From positions 1 through 24,896 of IMG/VR virus record IMGVR_UViG_3300048837_002345: 24,896 bases of DNA; one strand, given 5' to 3'. The translations under genes were made by a program, and so were the position numbers. Position 1 is the first letter of the stretch; each line of letters begins with the position of its first letter. The notes beneath the pieces were generated by a model. That model saw nothing but the letters and a program-made list of their open reading frames with translations. It had not been told where the DNA came from and made no database searches. This document shows, piece after piece, positions 1-17,599 of the stretch. This stretch comes from a virus.

Positions 1-741
1 CTATTTAACATTAAACAGGCGCTCACTGGCTACCTGAAAGTAGTGCCCGCTAATCTCGACGCCAGTGAAGCGCTTGCCCTGTTTCAGGGCCGCCACGGCG
101 GTGGTACCGGAGCCCATGAACGGGTCGAGGATGTGGCCGTCGGCGGCGGCGACCAGTTCGGCCATGAGGGCTTCGGGCTTGCCTACCTGGTGGAACTTGC
201 CGCCGGCAGTTGGCGGGACGCGAAACAGGCCGGGGTTGTAGCGCTCGCCGGCCAGGCTGCCTTTGGAGCCCCAGACGATGTACTCGCACTGGCTGCGGAA
301 ACCGCCCTTGTAGGGCCGGGCGCCGCCGGTCTTGTCCCAGACGGCGATGCCGCGCCAGATGAAGCCGGCGGCCTGCAGGGCGTCGGTGGTGACCGGGAGC
401 TGCCGCCAGTCCGAGAAGACGGCGATCAGCCCGCCGTCGGCCATCCTAGCGTGGCACAGGGCCATCCAAAGGGCGCTCCAGTGCAGGTAGGAGCGCTGGT
501 CCTTGGTGTCGCCCAGGAAGTCCGGGAAGCGCGTCGCGCCGGAGTTGAGGTACTTCTTTCCGGTGGATCGCGCCCGGTCGCCCTTGGACTGGCCGCCCGA
601 GCTGTAGGGTGGGTCGGTGATGACCGCGTTAAACGGGCCGGCCAGGGTCGGCAGCACCGCCAGGGCGTCGCCACGGTGGAGATCGGCGCCGCCGCCCGTT
701 AAATGATCCGGATTGTTAAGGAACTTTTTTCGAGTTGCCAT
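1..741 (-). CDS. DNA adenine (N6) methyltransferase in the mom position
   Basis: A complete 246-residue protein whose stop codon is the first three bases of the window. The catalytic motif IV, DPPY, is at residues 43-46, and the AdoMet-binding motif I, DPFMGSGTT, is at 206-214. The order IV before I is that of beta-class amino methyltransferases. DPPY fits N6-adenine methylation, although N4-cytosine enzymes cannot be fully excluded. It directly follows a Com-like gene and overlaps it by 26 bases, as mom follows com in phage Mu. Mom itself is an acetyltransferase-fold protein making a different base modification, so this enzyme replaces it. Mu-like prophages of Haemophilus and Neisseria are known to carry low-specificity adenine methyltransferases in this place, so a broad anti-restriction role is likely but inferred. 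The start codon lies inside a predicted hairpin (731-779), suggesting translational control by Com. Confidence 0.93.
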   Translation of the reverse strand: MATRKKFLNNPDHLTGGGADLHRGDALAVLPTLAGPFNAVITDPPYSSGGQSKGDRARSTGKKYLNSGATRFPDFLGDTKDQRSYLHWSALWMALCHARMADGGLIAVFSDWRQLPVTTDALQAAGFIWRGIAVWDKTGGARPYKGGFRSQCEYIVWGSKGSLAGERYNPGLFRVPPTAGGKFHQVGKPEALMAELVAAADGHILDPFMGSGTTAVAALKQGKRFTGVEISGHYFQVASERLFNVK

Positions 742-943
742 CGGGTCTTCCCTTTCGGTCTGACGCTCGATGGCGCTCGGGTGAGAGGCTCTTGGCCTTC
801 ATCACGTTCAGCGCCCCACACCTGGGGCACTTGATGGCCAGGCGGCGATAGTCCGCCTCGGCCAGTTTTCTGTTGCAGTTACCGCATCTGATCTCTTCCA
901 ATTCCAGCTGCCTCGCGTGGTAGGCTTGGCCCGCCGTGTGCAC
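716..943 (-). CDS. com: Com-like zinc-finger translational regulator
   Basis: A 75-residue protein with two CxxC pairs, C20/C23 and C39/C42, in the arrangement CGNC-x15-CPRC. This is the rubredoxin-like zinc knuckle of the Mu Com family. Mu Com binds the com-mom messenger and opens a hairpin so that mom can be translated. Here the 3' end of the gene overlaps the start of a DNA methyltransferase by 26 bases and a start-codon hairpin lies in the overlap region, so the same job is expected. Mu Com begins only a few residues before its first CxxC. The GTG start at 943 gives a longer N-terminus and has only a weak AAGG upstream; a TTG at 901 with GAGG nine bases upstream is a credible alternative. 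The C-terminal tail is basic, as expected for an RNA binder. Confidence 0.85.
   Translation of the reverse strand: MHTAGQAYHARQLELEEIRCGNCNRKLAEADYRRLAIKCPRCGALNVMKAKSLSPERHRASDRKGRPDGNSKKVP
731..779 (-). promoter_or_regulatory. RNA hairpin sequestering the methyltransferase start codon
   Basis: In the minus-strand transcript GCCATCG (774-768) is perfectly complementary to CGATGGC (743-737), which contains the ATG of the methyltransferase (741-739). The stem extends outward through CGAG (779-776) pairing with CTCG (734-731), across a small internal loop. The purine-rich GGGAAG ribosome-binding stretch falls in the 24-base loop. In Mu, mom translation is blocked by a similar structure until Com binds the RNA. 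The pairing is read directly; the Com link is inferred from gene order. Confidence 0.7.
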
Positions 944-10400: not shown

Positions 10401-11879
10401 TCAGAGGATGTACTGCACGGCGGCAGCGAACACGTCGAATTGGTTGACCAGGTTCGGCGGGATGACGGCATTGACGCGGCATTCGTCGGCCTCGGAGCGC
10501 AGCACGATCAGGTCGCGCTTGAACTGCGCCAGGTCTTCGAGCAGGCCAACCTCCACCAGTTGGCCGGCCGCCGCGATCAGCGTGTTGCGGATCAGCTTCG
10601 GCGTGGCGATCTTCTGCCCCGGACTGATGTACTGCAGCACATCGTCGTTCGCCAGTTTGTGGGCCGGGTAATCGCGCACCACGGCGAAGCGGAAGACGTA
10701 GCGCATGTAATCGACCGTCCACTTGGTGTTCAACTTGAGCAGGCTGCGATCGTCCATGTTGAAGGTGTTGGTCTGGTAGGTCGTGATGACCTGCTCGACC
10801 ATCGCCGCGCCGGAAGGATCGAAGATGATGGTGCTGATGCCGTCATGCAGCAGCAGGTTGCGCTCGGCGTCGGTGAAGCGGTCGGCCTCGGCAGGCGCCA
10901 TCACGTCTGGCAGGCGCAGCCCCCTGAACGGGATCGCCGGATCGTTCGCGCCGGAGAATTCCACGGCGGCGGCGAACTGCGCCGCCACCACCCAGGGCAG
11001 CGTCGGGCAGCCCTTGAGTCCGGGAAAGGTCGTGTGCGGGCTGTTGCGCGCGGCGCCGTAGGCCGACAGAGCGGCGAAGGTGCCCGACTTGAAGCCGAAG
11101 CTGTGGCCGGTGCGCATGTCCAAGCCGCCCCAGCGGCTTTGCAGCTCGCTCTCCATCGCCGTGACGTTGGCCACGTCCGTCCAGGGCATCACGATGGTGT
11201 AGAAGGCCCCGGTGCTCATGGCGGCGATCGCGTCGAGCACGTCCGGGTTTCCCGTTCCGCCTGACATGGCCACGATGGTGGCTGTCATGCCCTTCGGCGT
11301 GAACTCGCCGGTGTAGTAGTTCAGGCGAACGTCGATGCCGTTGCCTTCTTCGCCCTTGTGGCGTGCCGTCAGGGTCACCACAGCGGCGTTGGCGGCTGCG
11401 GTAACGGCCAGATCGGGCAGCGCGGTGATGGCGGCAGCCACGGCCGTGGCGATCGCCGTCGCCGTCTGCGAGGCGGTGATGCCGACGCGCACCGGCTTGC
11501 CGCCGATGTAGAGGTTCAACGTGCCGGCCTCGGTCGGAGATCCGCCGAAGGTGATGGTGCCGCTCGCCTGCACGCCAGCCACCAGATCGTCGAGCGCGAT
11601 CGCCCACAGGTCGGCGGTCGGGTGCACCTTGAGCGCAGCCGGGATCATCTGCGCCAGCATCGAGCCGCGCCCGAAGTAGTTGACCCCGTCGGCCTCGCGC
11701 GAGACGCGCGTCAGCACGCCCTCGGCAACGGTGCCGGTGGTCAGGCGCTGGCCAAGCAGCAGGACGCGGCGCGGCATGTTCGGCAGCCCGCGCACGGCTT
11801 TGGTGTGGTCGATCTCCAGCCAGGCGCCGGGAATGCGCCAGTCGGTCGGAATCGTCATGAACGTAATGTTGTCGGGCAT
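10401..11879 (-). CDS. Contractile tail sheath protein, Mu gpL (gp39) family
   Basis: A 492-residue protein, essentially the length of Mu gpL. It opens FMTIPTDWRIPGAWLEIDHTKAVRGLPNMPRRVLLLGQRL, which is diagnostic of the family. Later blocks include LQSRWGGLDMRTGHSFGFKSGT, NSPHTTFPGLKGCPTLPW and the C-terminal NVMDDRSLLK-like segment NTFNMDDRSLLKLNTKWTVDYMRYVFRF. The sheath makes this a myovirus-type phage. It has its own strong AGGAGG in a leader CCACAGGAGG (11893-11884), shared in core with the capsid and gp35 genes, in line with high expression. Confidence 0.96.
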   Translation of the reverse strand: MPDNITFMTIPTDWRIPGAWLEIDHTKAVRGLPNMPRRVLLLGQRLTTGTVAEGVLTRVSREADGVNYFGRGSMLAQMIPAALKVHPTADLWAIALDDLVAGVQASGTITFGGSPTEAGTLNLYIGGKPVRVGITASQTATAIATAVAAAITALPDLAVTAAANAAVVTLTARHKGEEGNGIDVRLNYYTGEFTPKGMTATIVAMSGGTGNPDVLDAIAAMSTGAFYTIVMPWTDVANVTAMESELQSRWGGLDMRTGHSFGFKSGTFAALSAYGAARNSPHTTFPGLKGCPTLPWVVAAQFAAAVEFSGANDPAIPFRGLRLPDVMAPAEADRFTDAERNLLLHDGISTIIFDPSGAAMVEQVITTYQTNTFNMDDRSLLKLNTKWTVDYMRYVFRFAVVRDYPAHKLANDDVLQYISPGQKIATPKLIRNTLIAAAGQLVEVGLLEDLAQFKRDLIVLRSEADECRVNAVIPPNLVNQFDVFAAAVQYIL

Positions 11880-16053: not shown

Positions 16054-16590
16054 GGTTTCCTCCTGGGTGGGTTGGTCGGGGAAAAGCTTTGCGGCCAGGG
16101 CGGCGAGATCCGTCAGGCCGTCGATGCCGGCAAAGTTGGTGAGCGCGGCATGGGCGACCGCCAGCACGCGGCCGGTGCGTTTGTCGTAGTTGAAAACAGG
16201 GCTGATGTAGCGGTACTGCTTTGCGGCGATCATCGCGGCAGCCTCCGCCGTCCACTCGACGTCGACGGCATAAAGACCGTCGTCGCGCGCCTCCAGCTTG
16301 CCGATCCAGCCGGCTGCCGGAGCCGGCCTGCCGTTGACCTCGGCATGCAGGGTCTGGTGTTCGTAATCGATCACACGCGCATCGCCACGGGCATTGAAGG
16401 CGGCGGCGACAGCCGCCGCGCCTTCACGCTCAAGCAACCAGCCGTCCGGGACGCCGACCGGGCGGCCGGAGCCGTCGGCGGCCTTGAAGCGACCATAGGG
16501 CAGCAGGCGGAAAGCCTTGGGCGGCGTGACGCCGCCGGCCGTCAGATCGACGGAGAGGGCGGCAATGGCAAAGTCGGCGCGGCGTTTCAT
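15538..16590 (-). CDS. Head maturation protease/scaffold, Mu gpI family
   Basis: A 350-residue protein of Mu gpI type. The protease half (about 1-175) shows FRLLPYGRFKAADGSGRPVGVPDGWLLEREGAAAVAAAFN, VIDYEHQTL, GWIGKLEARDDGLYAVDVEWTAEAAAMIAAKQYRYISPVF and AALTNFAGIDGL. All are conserved in Mu-like head proteases; the histidine of DYEHQ is a likely catalytic residue. The C-terminal half is a coiled-coil scaffold, with a glycine-rich linker near 303-322 before a final helix. Its 3' half can also be made alone from an internal start (16053). The ATG is an ATGA overlap with a doubtful 82-codon frame upstream, and the proposed late-promoter motif ends 33 bases upstream. Confidence 0.93.
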   Translation of the reverse strand: MKRRADFAIAALSVDLTAGGVTPPKAFRLLPYGRFKAADGSGRPVGVPDGWLLEREGAAAVAAAFNARGDARVIDYEHQTLHAEVNGRPAPAAGWIGKLEARDDGLYAVDVEWTAEAAAMIAAKQYRYISPVFNYDKRTGRVLAVAHAALTNFAGIDGLTDLAALAAKLFPDQPTQEETMKELLKALGLAETATEAEALAALNAVKSAHQGEVAALKGAAPDPAKYVEVGVLTGVRNELATATTELAALKAEKAQAEVDKVIADGLAAGKLTPATEPHARKLAGDLAALKGFIDAQPVVVAPGGQTGGRPPAGGGGGDGKLSETELAVCRQLGISAEEFLKSKAGEAAAA

Positions 16591-16835
16591 GCCCAGAATC
16601 CTGCCGGTTTCGGCCTGGCCGATCCGCTAAAGCGTTTTACTAATTCAGGCGCCCGAAAACCGGGGAAACCGGCTTTCCCTGCAAACCGGCCCGACCGAAG
16701 CCCGCAGGACCGGCCCACCGACCCCGTTAAACCCCCGTTAAAAACCGCTGACGGAAATTTTCCGGGGGTAGATAGCCATCCGGGGCTTCCAGCGGCACAC
16801 AGGGCCTGTATCGCGGCCGGCGCAAAAAGCCTCAT
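16587..16835 (-). CDS. Doubtful 82-codon frame in the F-I gap
   Basis: An open frame starts in an ATGA overlap with the F-like gene, after GGAGG, and ends in an ATGA overlap with the protease gene, so its layout looks like a real gene. Against this, its third codon positions are far less GC-biased than in neighbours, its sequence (Gly/Arg/Ser/Phe-rich, no motif) resembles nothing I know, and it contains tandem repeats, a palindrome and the 21-bp motif. It is kept as an open question; noncoding DNA seems more likely. Confidence 0.25.
   Translation of the reverse strand: MRLFAPAAIQALCAAGSPGWLSTPGKFPSAVFNGGLTGSVGRSCGLRSGRFAGKAGFPGFRAPELVKRFSGSARPKPAGFWA
16623..16643 (-). promoter_or_regulatory. 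Proposed late-promoter/activator site, copy 2 (PI-like)
   Basis: On the minus strand TTAGTAAAACGCTTTAGCGG, plus one further matching base, is the near-exact repeat of the site at 23271-23291 (20 of 21 identical). The core TAAAAC-GCTTTA is an imperfect dyad. It lies 33 bases before the protease/scaffold ATG, the place of the Mu PI late promoter. Recognition by the Mor/C-family protein encoded at 24268 is inferred. Confidence 0.65.
16722..16743. repeat. Tandem 11-bp repeat in the F-I gap
   Basis: Two adjacent units, CCCCGTTAAAC and CCCCGTTAAAA on the plus strand, match at 10 of 11 positions. They lie about 80 bases upstream (minus-strand sense) of the 21-bp motif, near the palindrome at 16752-16764. 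Possible protein-binding repeats. Confidence 0.5.
16752..16764. repeat. AT-cored palindrome CGGAAATTTTCCG
   Basis: CGGAAA and TTTCCG arms form a near-perfect 13-base palindrome. It is in the short low-GC gap between the F-like and protease genes. Too short for a terminator and without a U-run; a protein-binding site is possible. Confidence 0.4.
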
Positions 16836-17599
16836 GCCGACCCCTCCAATCCGGCCCGCGCGACCTTCTCGGCCAGCATCCGGTCCAGGTTGGCCTGCCG
16901 GCCGCCGGGCGGATAGGCGAACTCGGGGTCGACGCCGGCCGGCACGCGGCTGGTCTCGCCTGTGCGCTTGTTCACGTAATCCTGGTAGCGCTCGGGCGGC
17001 GCGGCGCCGACCTTGGCGCCCATGCGGTCGAGCTGGCGGCTGCCGAGCTGGATCACCCGGCACTTGCAGCCCCAAGCGCGCACCGGGTAGTGCGACTGCC
17101 ACCACGGATCGTCGGCGGGCAGCACCATGCCGTCCCAGGCGGCGTGCTCCTTGCGCTCGTGCGCCGATGGCGTGTGGTCGTACATGAGGTACGGCGCCTC
17201 GGCCTTGGTTTCCTGGATGCGCACCCACTGCCCCTCGCTGTGCGCCTGGCGCAGGTTGGTGTCGTAGATCACCTTGAGGCGGCGCGTGCTGCCGAGCTGC
17301 ACTTCCTTCGCCTCGCCTGTGGCCGGATCGGTCATCACGGCGCGCCCCCACCAGCCGCGCCTGACCAGGTTCGGTTTGAGGGTTTCACGGAAGGTCTCGA
17401 AGGTGGTGCCCAGCTCGATGGCGGCATCGACCTGCTCGCGGATGTCGGCCAGCAGGTCGAGCTGCATGGCCTTGGCCACCGTGAAGGCGGCCTGGTGTTC
17501 GGCCTGCCACACGTCGCGATGGTCGAAGCCGATCTTGAAGCCTTTGCGGCGGAAGAAGGCGATCGCTTCCTCGGGCGGCAAGGAGAGCAGGCGCAGCAT
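16832..17599 (-). CDS. Minor head/morphogenesis protein, Mu gpF (SPP1 gp7) family
   Basis: A 255-residue protein. The pattern KVIYDTNLRQAHSEGQWVR (about 109-127), YLMYDHTPSAHERKEHAAWDGMVLPADDPWW (about 138-168) and HYPVRAWGCKCRVIQL (about 170-185) is that of the phage Mu F / SPP1 gp7 head morphogenesis family. It sits on the portal, usually a few copies per head, and may be co-injected. It is shorter than Mu gpF as I recall that protein. It starts in a TAATG overlap with the portal gene. It is followed by a gap with altered composition instead of Mu's gene G. Confidence 0.92.
   Translation of the reverse strand: MLRLLSLPPEEAIAFFRRKGFKIGFDHRDVWQAEHQAAFTVAKAMQLDLLADIREQVDAAIELGTTFETFRETLKPNLVRRGWWGRAVMTDPATGEAKEVQLGSTRRLKVIYDTNLRQAHSEGQWVRIQETKAEAPYLMYDHTPSAHERKEHAAWDGMVLPADDPWWQSHYPVRAWGCKCRVIQLGSRQLDRMGAKVGAAPPERYQDYVNKRTGETSRVPAGVDPEFAYPPGGRQANLDRMLAEKVARAGLEGSA

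Follow-up and report, generated by a model that had tools for sequence, protein, structure and literature searches.

The com/mom operon of phage Mu is a model system in which Com, an RNA-binding protein, activates the translation of mom; Com selects the sequence CC(N)2-3GAG in vitro (SELEX), protects its GA dinucleotide and binds RNA carrying two such motifs better than RNA carrying one (PMC6483171). This switch has become a textbook case and is usually taken to be specific to Mu. Additionally, com genes lying next to genes for adenine methyltransferases were known before in phages B3 and KS5. Adenine methyltransferases reportedly also replace Mom in FluMu-like prophages, and the work on Hin1523 and Hia5 is said to concern these enzymes and not a conserved RNA leader. 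A related principle operates in leaders of the antitermination type, where a hairpin stabilised by a protein competes with an overlapping inhibitory hairpin.

The DNA analysed here, a stretch of 24,896 nucleotides termed the window, belongs to a Mu-like phage. An earlier note on this sequence had proposed that the start codon of a methyltransferase located behind a com-like gene is concealed by a hairpin; both genes lie on the minus strand (Table 1). The identity of the two genes could be established: the com-like gene is com (PF10122), and the enzyme behind it is indeed an effector other than Mom, scoring 93.9 bits against PF01555 for a gathering cut-off of 26.7, with a DPPY catalytic motif that can be read in its translation. 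Adenine-specific models of the CcrM type match the methyltransferase as well, but below their cut-off, and adenine is its likely target base. Com displays the traits of its family, namely a CCCC zinc-ribbon, the conserved R and the CPRC sequence; residues R4, C5, C8, C24, P25, R26 and C27 are invariant in 18 Coms including that of Mu, and the tail is fairly conserved as PERxxAS. The listed com reading frame begins at GTG 943; however, the alignment of relatives points to TTG 901-899, a position at which some of them directly carry a stop codon or a Met, and this TTG is probably the true start. The gene overlaps the start of the methyltransferase gene by 26 nt, and overlaps between the two genes are common among relatives. 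The mRNA of the leader, transcribed from the minus strand, reads 5'-CCGAGCGCCAUCGAGCGUCAGACCGAAAGGGAAGACCCGAUGGCAACUCG-3'. An Rfam search covering the window, this leader included, and the Mu com/mom region returned no family above the gathering score, and a sequence search for a solved structure of any Com relative returned none. Two further features of the window were recorded: a 9-nt inverted repeat (89%, 4-nt loop) at positions 810-831, in the zinc-ribbon part of com and upstream of the hairpin termed H1 in Table 1, and a reading frame of 254 aa in the head region (16587-17351) that has no PHROG match.

Table 1. Features of the com-methyltransferase locus and second leader copies in related loci. 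Coordinates are those of the window unless a related locus is named.
Feature	Position	Strand	Remarks
DNA methyltransferase (effector)	1-741	-	246 aa; PF01555 N6_N4_Mtase, E 1.8e-26; DPPY motif
com (from the probable start)	716-901	-	PF10122 Zn_ribbon_Com, E 1.4e-15; listed ORF 716-943
Start-hiding stem, 5' arm GCCAUCG	768-774	-	inside H2 loop and stem; perfect inverted repeat
Start-hiding stem, 3' arm CGAUGGC	737-743	-	contains AUG 741-739; perfect inverted repeat
4-bp extension, 5' arm CGAG	776-779	-	kept only in closest relatives
4-bp extension, 3' arm CUCG	731-734	-	kept only in closest relatives
Ribosome-binding site AAAGGGA	749-755	-	in stem loop; read from sequence
H1 hairpin AGGC-CAAGA-GCCU	786-798	-	arms 795-798 and 786-789; motif CC(N)2GAG
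H2 hairpin GCGC-CAUCGA-GCGU	763-776	-	arms 773-776 and 763-766; motif CC(N)3GAG
Second H1-H2 copy	L110: 2423-2499; L142: 2424-2499; L365: about 11110-11180		

The hairpin over the methyltransferase start is present as the earlier note had described it, with seven perfectly paired bases covering the ATG, the ribosome-binding site in the loop and the upstream arm inside com, and it is formed by the only perfect 7-nt inverted repeat at that spacing within positions 690-960. Relatives retain both the 7-bp core and the occlusion of the start, a lack of conservation of the arms having been named beforehand as an outcome that would tell against the proposed switch. The extension of the stem by 4 bp fared less well: it does pair in this phage and is present in L001, L002, L004 and L005, but it is absent from L006, L007, L010, L085, L090, L091, L163, L164 and L170 and, being confined to the closest relatives (at least 90%), it was rejected as a conserved part. 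The start-hiding stem is included in the MFE fold (-32 kcal/mol, 111 nt). The free energy of the leader fold is ordinary (z -1.47, with 16 of 200 shuffled sequences equally stable). The position of the start codon in this fold is, however, exceptional, with a predicted probability of being unpaired of 0.00 vs 0.36 in shuffled sequences (rank 0 of 60). The accessibility of the start averaged 0.35 vs 0.45 in shuffles for 187 Com-controlled genes, whereas no drop was observed for 150 control genes (0.50 vs 0.47 shuffled; p = 1e-6 when compared to the Com-controlled genes). For leaders with the start at +76, the stem register of this phage was the best among all registers, and the same register was preferred in the N6/N4, D12 and other groups when each was judged separately, a single rival register tying on the longest run in the small group of other effectors. 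The longest helix in this register measured 4.72 bp on average, as compared to a maximum of 3.38 among 1000 shuffles and to 4.64 after the 3' sides had been swapped among leaders. Covariation between the two arms in homologues, a check suggested in the earlier note, was too weak to serve as proof (59.0% of cells paired vs 57.5% in shuffles) and was dropped as such. We also discarded chance as an explanation: stability alone is unremarkable, yet occlusion, register and covariation reject it.

While the start-hiding stem is real, the RNA logic put forward in the earlier note had overlooked the better-supported part of the leader, two tandem hairpins termed H1 and H2. Both are situated downstream of the codon for the last cysteine of Com and ahead of the effector start, and the published Com target, CC(N)2-3GAG, is found in their loops. 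Scanning viral contigs and GTDB genomes yielded 315 Com loci with 205 distinct leaders. When only stems of at least 3 bp with the strict CC(N)2-3GAG motif were counted, at least one Com-motif hairpin could be detected in 185 of the 205 leaders and at least two in 114, as compared to 2.5% and 0.02%, respectively, of control windows from the same loci. Unconstrained RNAalifold folding of an ungapped alignment of 52 leaders produced exactly H1 and H2, whose pairs are formed in 97.1% of cases across these leaders, with 39 compensatory (double-change) cells, some of them at silent codon positions, where 5.0 +/- 2.3 were expected. When the 1378 column pairs from 159 leaders were all ranked, H1/H2 pairs took ranks 1, 2, 3, 7 and 10, although only the first clears the all-pairs threshold alone. 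Mapping onto the tree placed 52 double-substitution branches over the eight H1/H2 pairs vs 15.6 +/- 3.7. Furthermore, the third base of a com alanine codon tracks its partner in H2 (CG 74, GC 12, AU 10, UA 4, others 8), and since this site is silent for Com, it is the pairing of the RNA that is under selection.

The predicted folds connect the two elements. The 5' arm of the start-hiding stem consists of the H2 loop and part of the H2 stem, so that H2 and the start-hiding stem are mutually exclusive, while H1 forms with a probability of 1.00 in the free leader and is compatible with the stem. When H1 and H2 were fixed as a stand-in for Com binding, the accessibility of the start rose from 0.00 to 0.43 in the leader of this phage; the corresponding values were 0.30 and 0.49 for 129 leaders, vs 0.44 and 0.47 for their shuffled counterparts (p = 2e-7). 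This gain was strong in the N6/N4 group; there was nearly none in the start+70 D12 group (0.127 vs 0.103 in shuffles), and the start of the Mom locus L073 stayed closed (0.00 to 0.01). Folding with the stem is favoured over folding with H2 by 13 kcal/mol, which makes an equilibrium displacement by Com at H2 alone unlikely and from which we infer that Com would act co-transcriptionally, before the 3' arm is made.

The following chain of events can be proposed. In the free mRNA, GCCAUCG would pair with the start-codon region and the methyltransferase would be poorly translated. Com, produced from the overlapping upstream gene, would bind H1 and H2 at their CC(N)2-3GAG loops and keep H2 closed, so that the inhibitory stem would lose its 5' arm and the AUG would be exposed. 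This would most likely take place during RNA synthesis, when H1 and H2 emerge ahead of the 3' arm, and H1, which is already complete in the free RNA, would serve as a docking site for Com; the better binding of two-motif RNA by Com fits such a tandem site. The H1-H2 leader is a portable part placed ahead of various methyltransferases or Mom and sometimes repeated for a second methyltransferase, and the biological end might be the late modification of phage DNA against restriction. Taken as a whole, we consider it likely that the locus encodes a translational switch that responds to Com, governs a phage DNA methyltransferase and is carried by a portable H1-H2 leader.

The inhibitory helix itself differs between lineages, and one conserved stem register for all relatives was rejected, as the Burkholderia P2-like and the start+70 D12 leaders differ. 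In the Burkholderia P2-like leaders (e.g. L018, L181 and KS5, which is L344), the start is open and the ribosome site is hidden by a CCCUU/AAGGG pairing. The CCCUU lies at the H1 3' arm, and H1 itself may thus compete with the inhibitory pairing. In 20 out of 29 start+70 D12 leaders (e.g. L012, L048, L056 and L066), UCAGCU immediately ahead of H1 pairs with AGCUGA immediately ahead of the start, and L053 has a compensated variant, UCAGUU/AACUGA; this pairing may represent a third design of the inhibitory structure. Since these lineages hide the start or the ribosome site by different helices, the inhibitory function seems to outlast any one helix.

The identity of the gene placed behind com varies as well. 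Among 89 diverse effectors we counted 52 D12 adenine methyltransferases, 23 N6/N4 methyltransferases, 5 C5 cytosine methyltransferases and 3 Mom. In L073, L177, L382 and L407, the H1-H2 leader stands before Mom or a protein resembling it, the assignment of the last two being based on the resemblance of their translations only; a helix of about 10 bp sequesters the start region in L073 and L382. Counted from the last Com cysteine codon, the next gene begins at a distance of 70-79 nt in most loci, of 52 nt in Mu and of 61 nt in an E. coli group. A strict pattern of the element matched viral contigs 80 times, and a com zinc-ribbon could be recognised upstream of 72 matches by a simple pattern. 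The other 8 correspond to five variant com genes, one cut by a contig end and two chance-like matches, and the existence of stand-alone elements was rejected. The earlier suggestion that the regulatory cassette and the modifying enzyme can be exchanged separately is borne out: in many phages, the same RNA cassette stands before several unrelated DNA-modifying enzymes (D12, N6/N4 and C5 methyltransferases and Mom), so that switch and enzyme behave as separately exchangeable parts. It is to be noted that the effector slot of L033, L202, L210, L230, L233, L014, L043 and L071 is occupied by a protein of about 50 aa (GKNGFKY..YGVIILC..) belonging to no Pfam family. In L008, L023, L180, L242 and L332, a P-loop ABC-ATPase-like frame is found after com, with a small reading frame between the two in at least some of these loci; it is a candidate for an unusual modification or accessory gene.

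Three loci, L110, L142 and L365, display the order com, C5 methyltransferase, second H1-H2 copy and second methyltransferase, the latter being of the N6/N4 type in two loci and D12-like in the third. The second H1-H2 copy is found past the stop codon that ends the C5 methyltransferase gene, and the com zinc-ribbon is absent there, although in L365 this copy is also readable as part of the frame of the second methyltransferase. Residual tail-like sequence suggests that the second copies derive from duplicated com ends. These loci are likely to be two-enzyme Com regulons, and such operons predict one Com serving two enzymes.

These operons bear on other explanations of the locus. Ribosomes translating com could open the stem themselves and pass on to the methyltransferase start, in which case binding by Com would be unnecessary. 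Such translational coupling accords with the 26-nt overlap, with the frequency of overlaps among relatives, with the location of the upstream arm within com and with a stem too stable for simple displacement. However, coupling does not require Com motifs to be kept as covarying hairpins, and the second-copy operons argue against pure coupling because their second leader follows the stop of the preceding methyltransferase, where com is not translated. Additionally, Com of Mu is reported to be an RNA-binding protein that activates the translation of mom (PMC6483171), and we regard coupling as an unlikely explanation. H1 and H2 might otherwise be Com sites used for com feedback, RNA stability or transcription, the start-hiding stem being independent of them. 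The coexistence of H1 with the stem in the free leader, the location of both hairpins inside com and the starts that are not exposed by fixing H1/H2 in some lineages would all be compatible with this explanation, but the hairpins also occur ahead of the second methyltransferase without the com zinc-ribbon, their spacing to the effector start is near-constant and the stem uses the own strand of H2; we give such a separate purpose a slim chance. Finally, the proposal that the pairings are a by-product of the Com-tail amino-acid sequence and chance, for which the conserved tail and the lack of exceptional stability of the fold could be invoked, was rejected as very improbable in view of the silent compensation at the alanine codon, the excess of double-substitution branches, the persistence of H1/H2 outside com in L110, L142 and L365 and the near absence of two such hairpins from control windows.

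We thus retain the Com-responsive switch and, on balance, lean towards the broader proposal that a portable two-hairpin leader lets one Com switch any modifying enzyme that a phage carries, sometimes two of them, probably in a co-transcriptional manner. The comparison of these loci points to a general, modular means by which temperate phages would time DNA modification. The exact bases that Com should hold are now named, the natural two-target operons permit direct testing of the action of Com in trans, and a covariance model of the leader can find Com-controlled genes of unknown type.

Among described phages, com had already been annotated beside a DNA methyltransferase gene in B3 and KS5, and we also found this arrangement in Bise, TJ1, Smp131 and Chuche; com lies directly upstream of the methyltransferase gene in all of them, as it does here. 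For pairs of the B3/KS5 type, the genes are annotated, whereas no RNA element is recorded. Our covariance model R1 matches B3, KS5, Bise, TJ1 and Smp131; the leader of Chuche and of the E. coli group is shorter, resembles that of Mu and gives no R1 match. Pseudomonas phage Bise (L343) carries a gene of the reverse-transcriptase family (272-1303) immediately ahead of com and the adenine methylase gene. In the open-licence literature, we came across no account of the two hairpins in tandem or of their covariation, nor of their exclusivity with the stem, the modularity of the leader or its second copies. FluMu-like prophages of the Hin1523/Hia5 type likewise carry an unrelated adenine methyltransferase in the place of mom. 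As compared to leaders of the antitermination type, the switch in this phage would act on the start of translation, and its leader RNA itself codes for the regulator.

The closest parallel is Mu. In Mu mom, with which the earlier note had drawn the parallel, the GUG pairs with CCCAC and the SD lies in the loop. Both loci have a Com zinc-ribbon gene upstream of and overlapping the effector, a hairpin with a CC(N)2-3GAG loop shortly before the effector start, and a start codon placed in a stem with the SD in its loop. By analogy with Mu, Com would activate translation of the methyltransferase by opening this stem. The likeness drawn to the Mu switch is in substance supported and holds for the start-hiding architecture, but the layout is not quite identical: one Com hairpin is described in Mu, with the inhibitory stem beside it, whereas this phage has two in tandem and its stem borrows a strand of H2. 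Since the effector is an N6/N4-type methyltransferase (PF01555) and not Mom (PF25680), the locus would work like com/mom, yet it is no com/mom operon.
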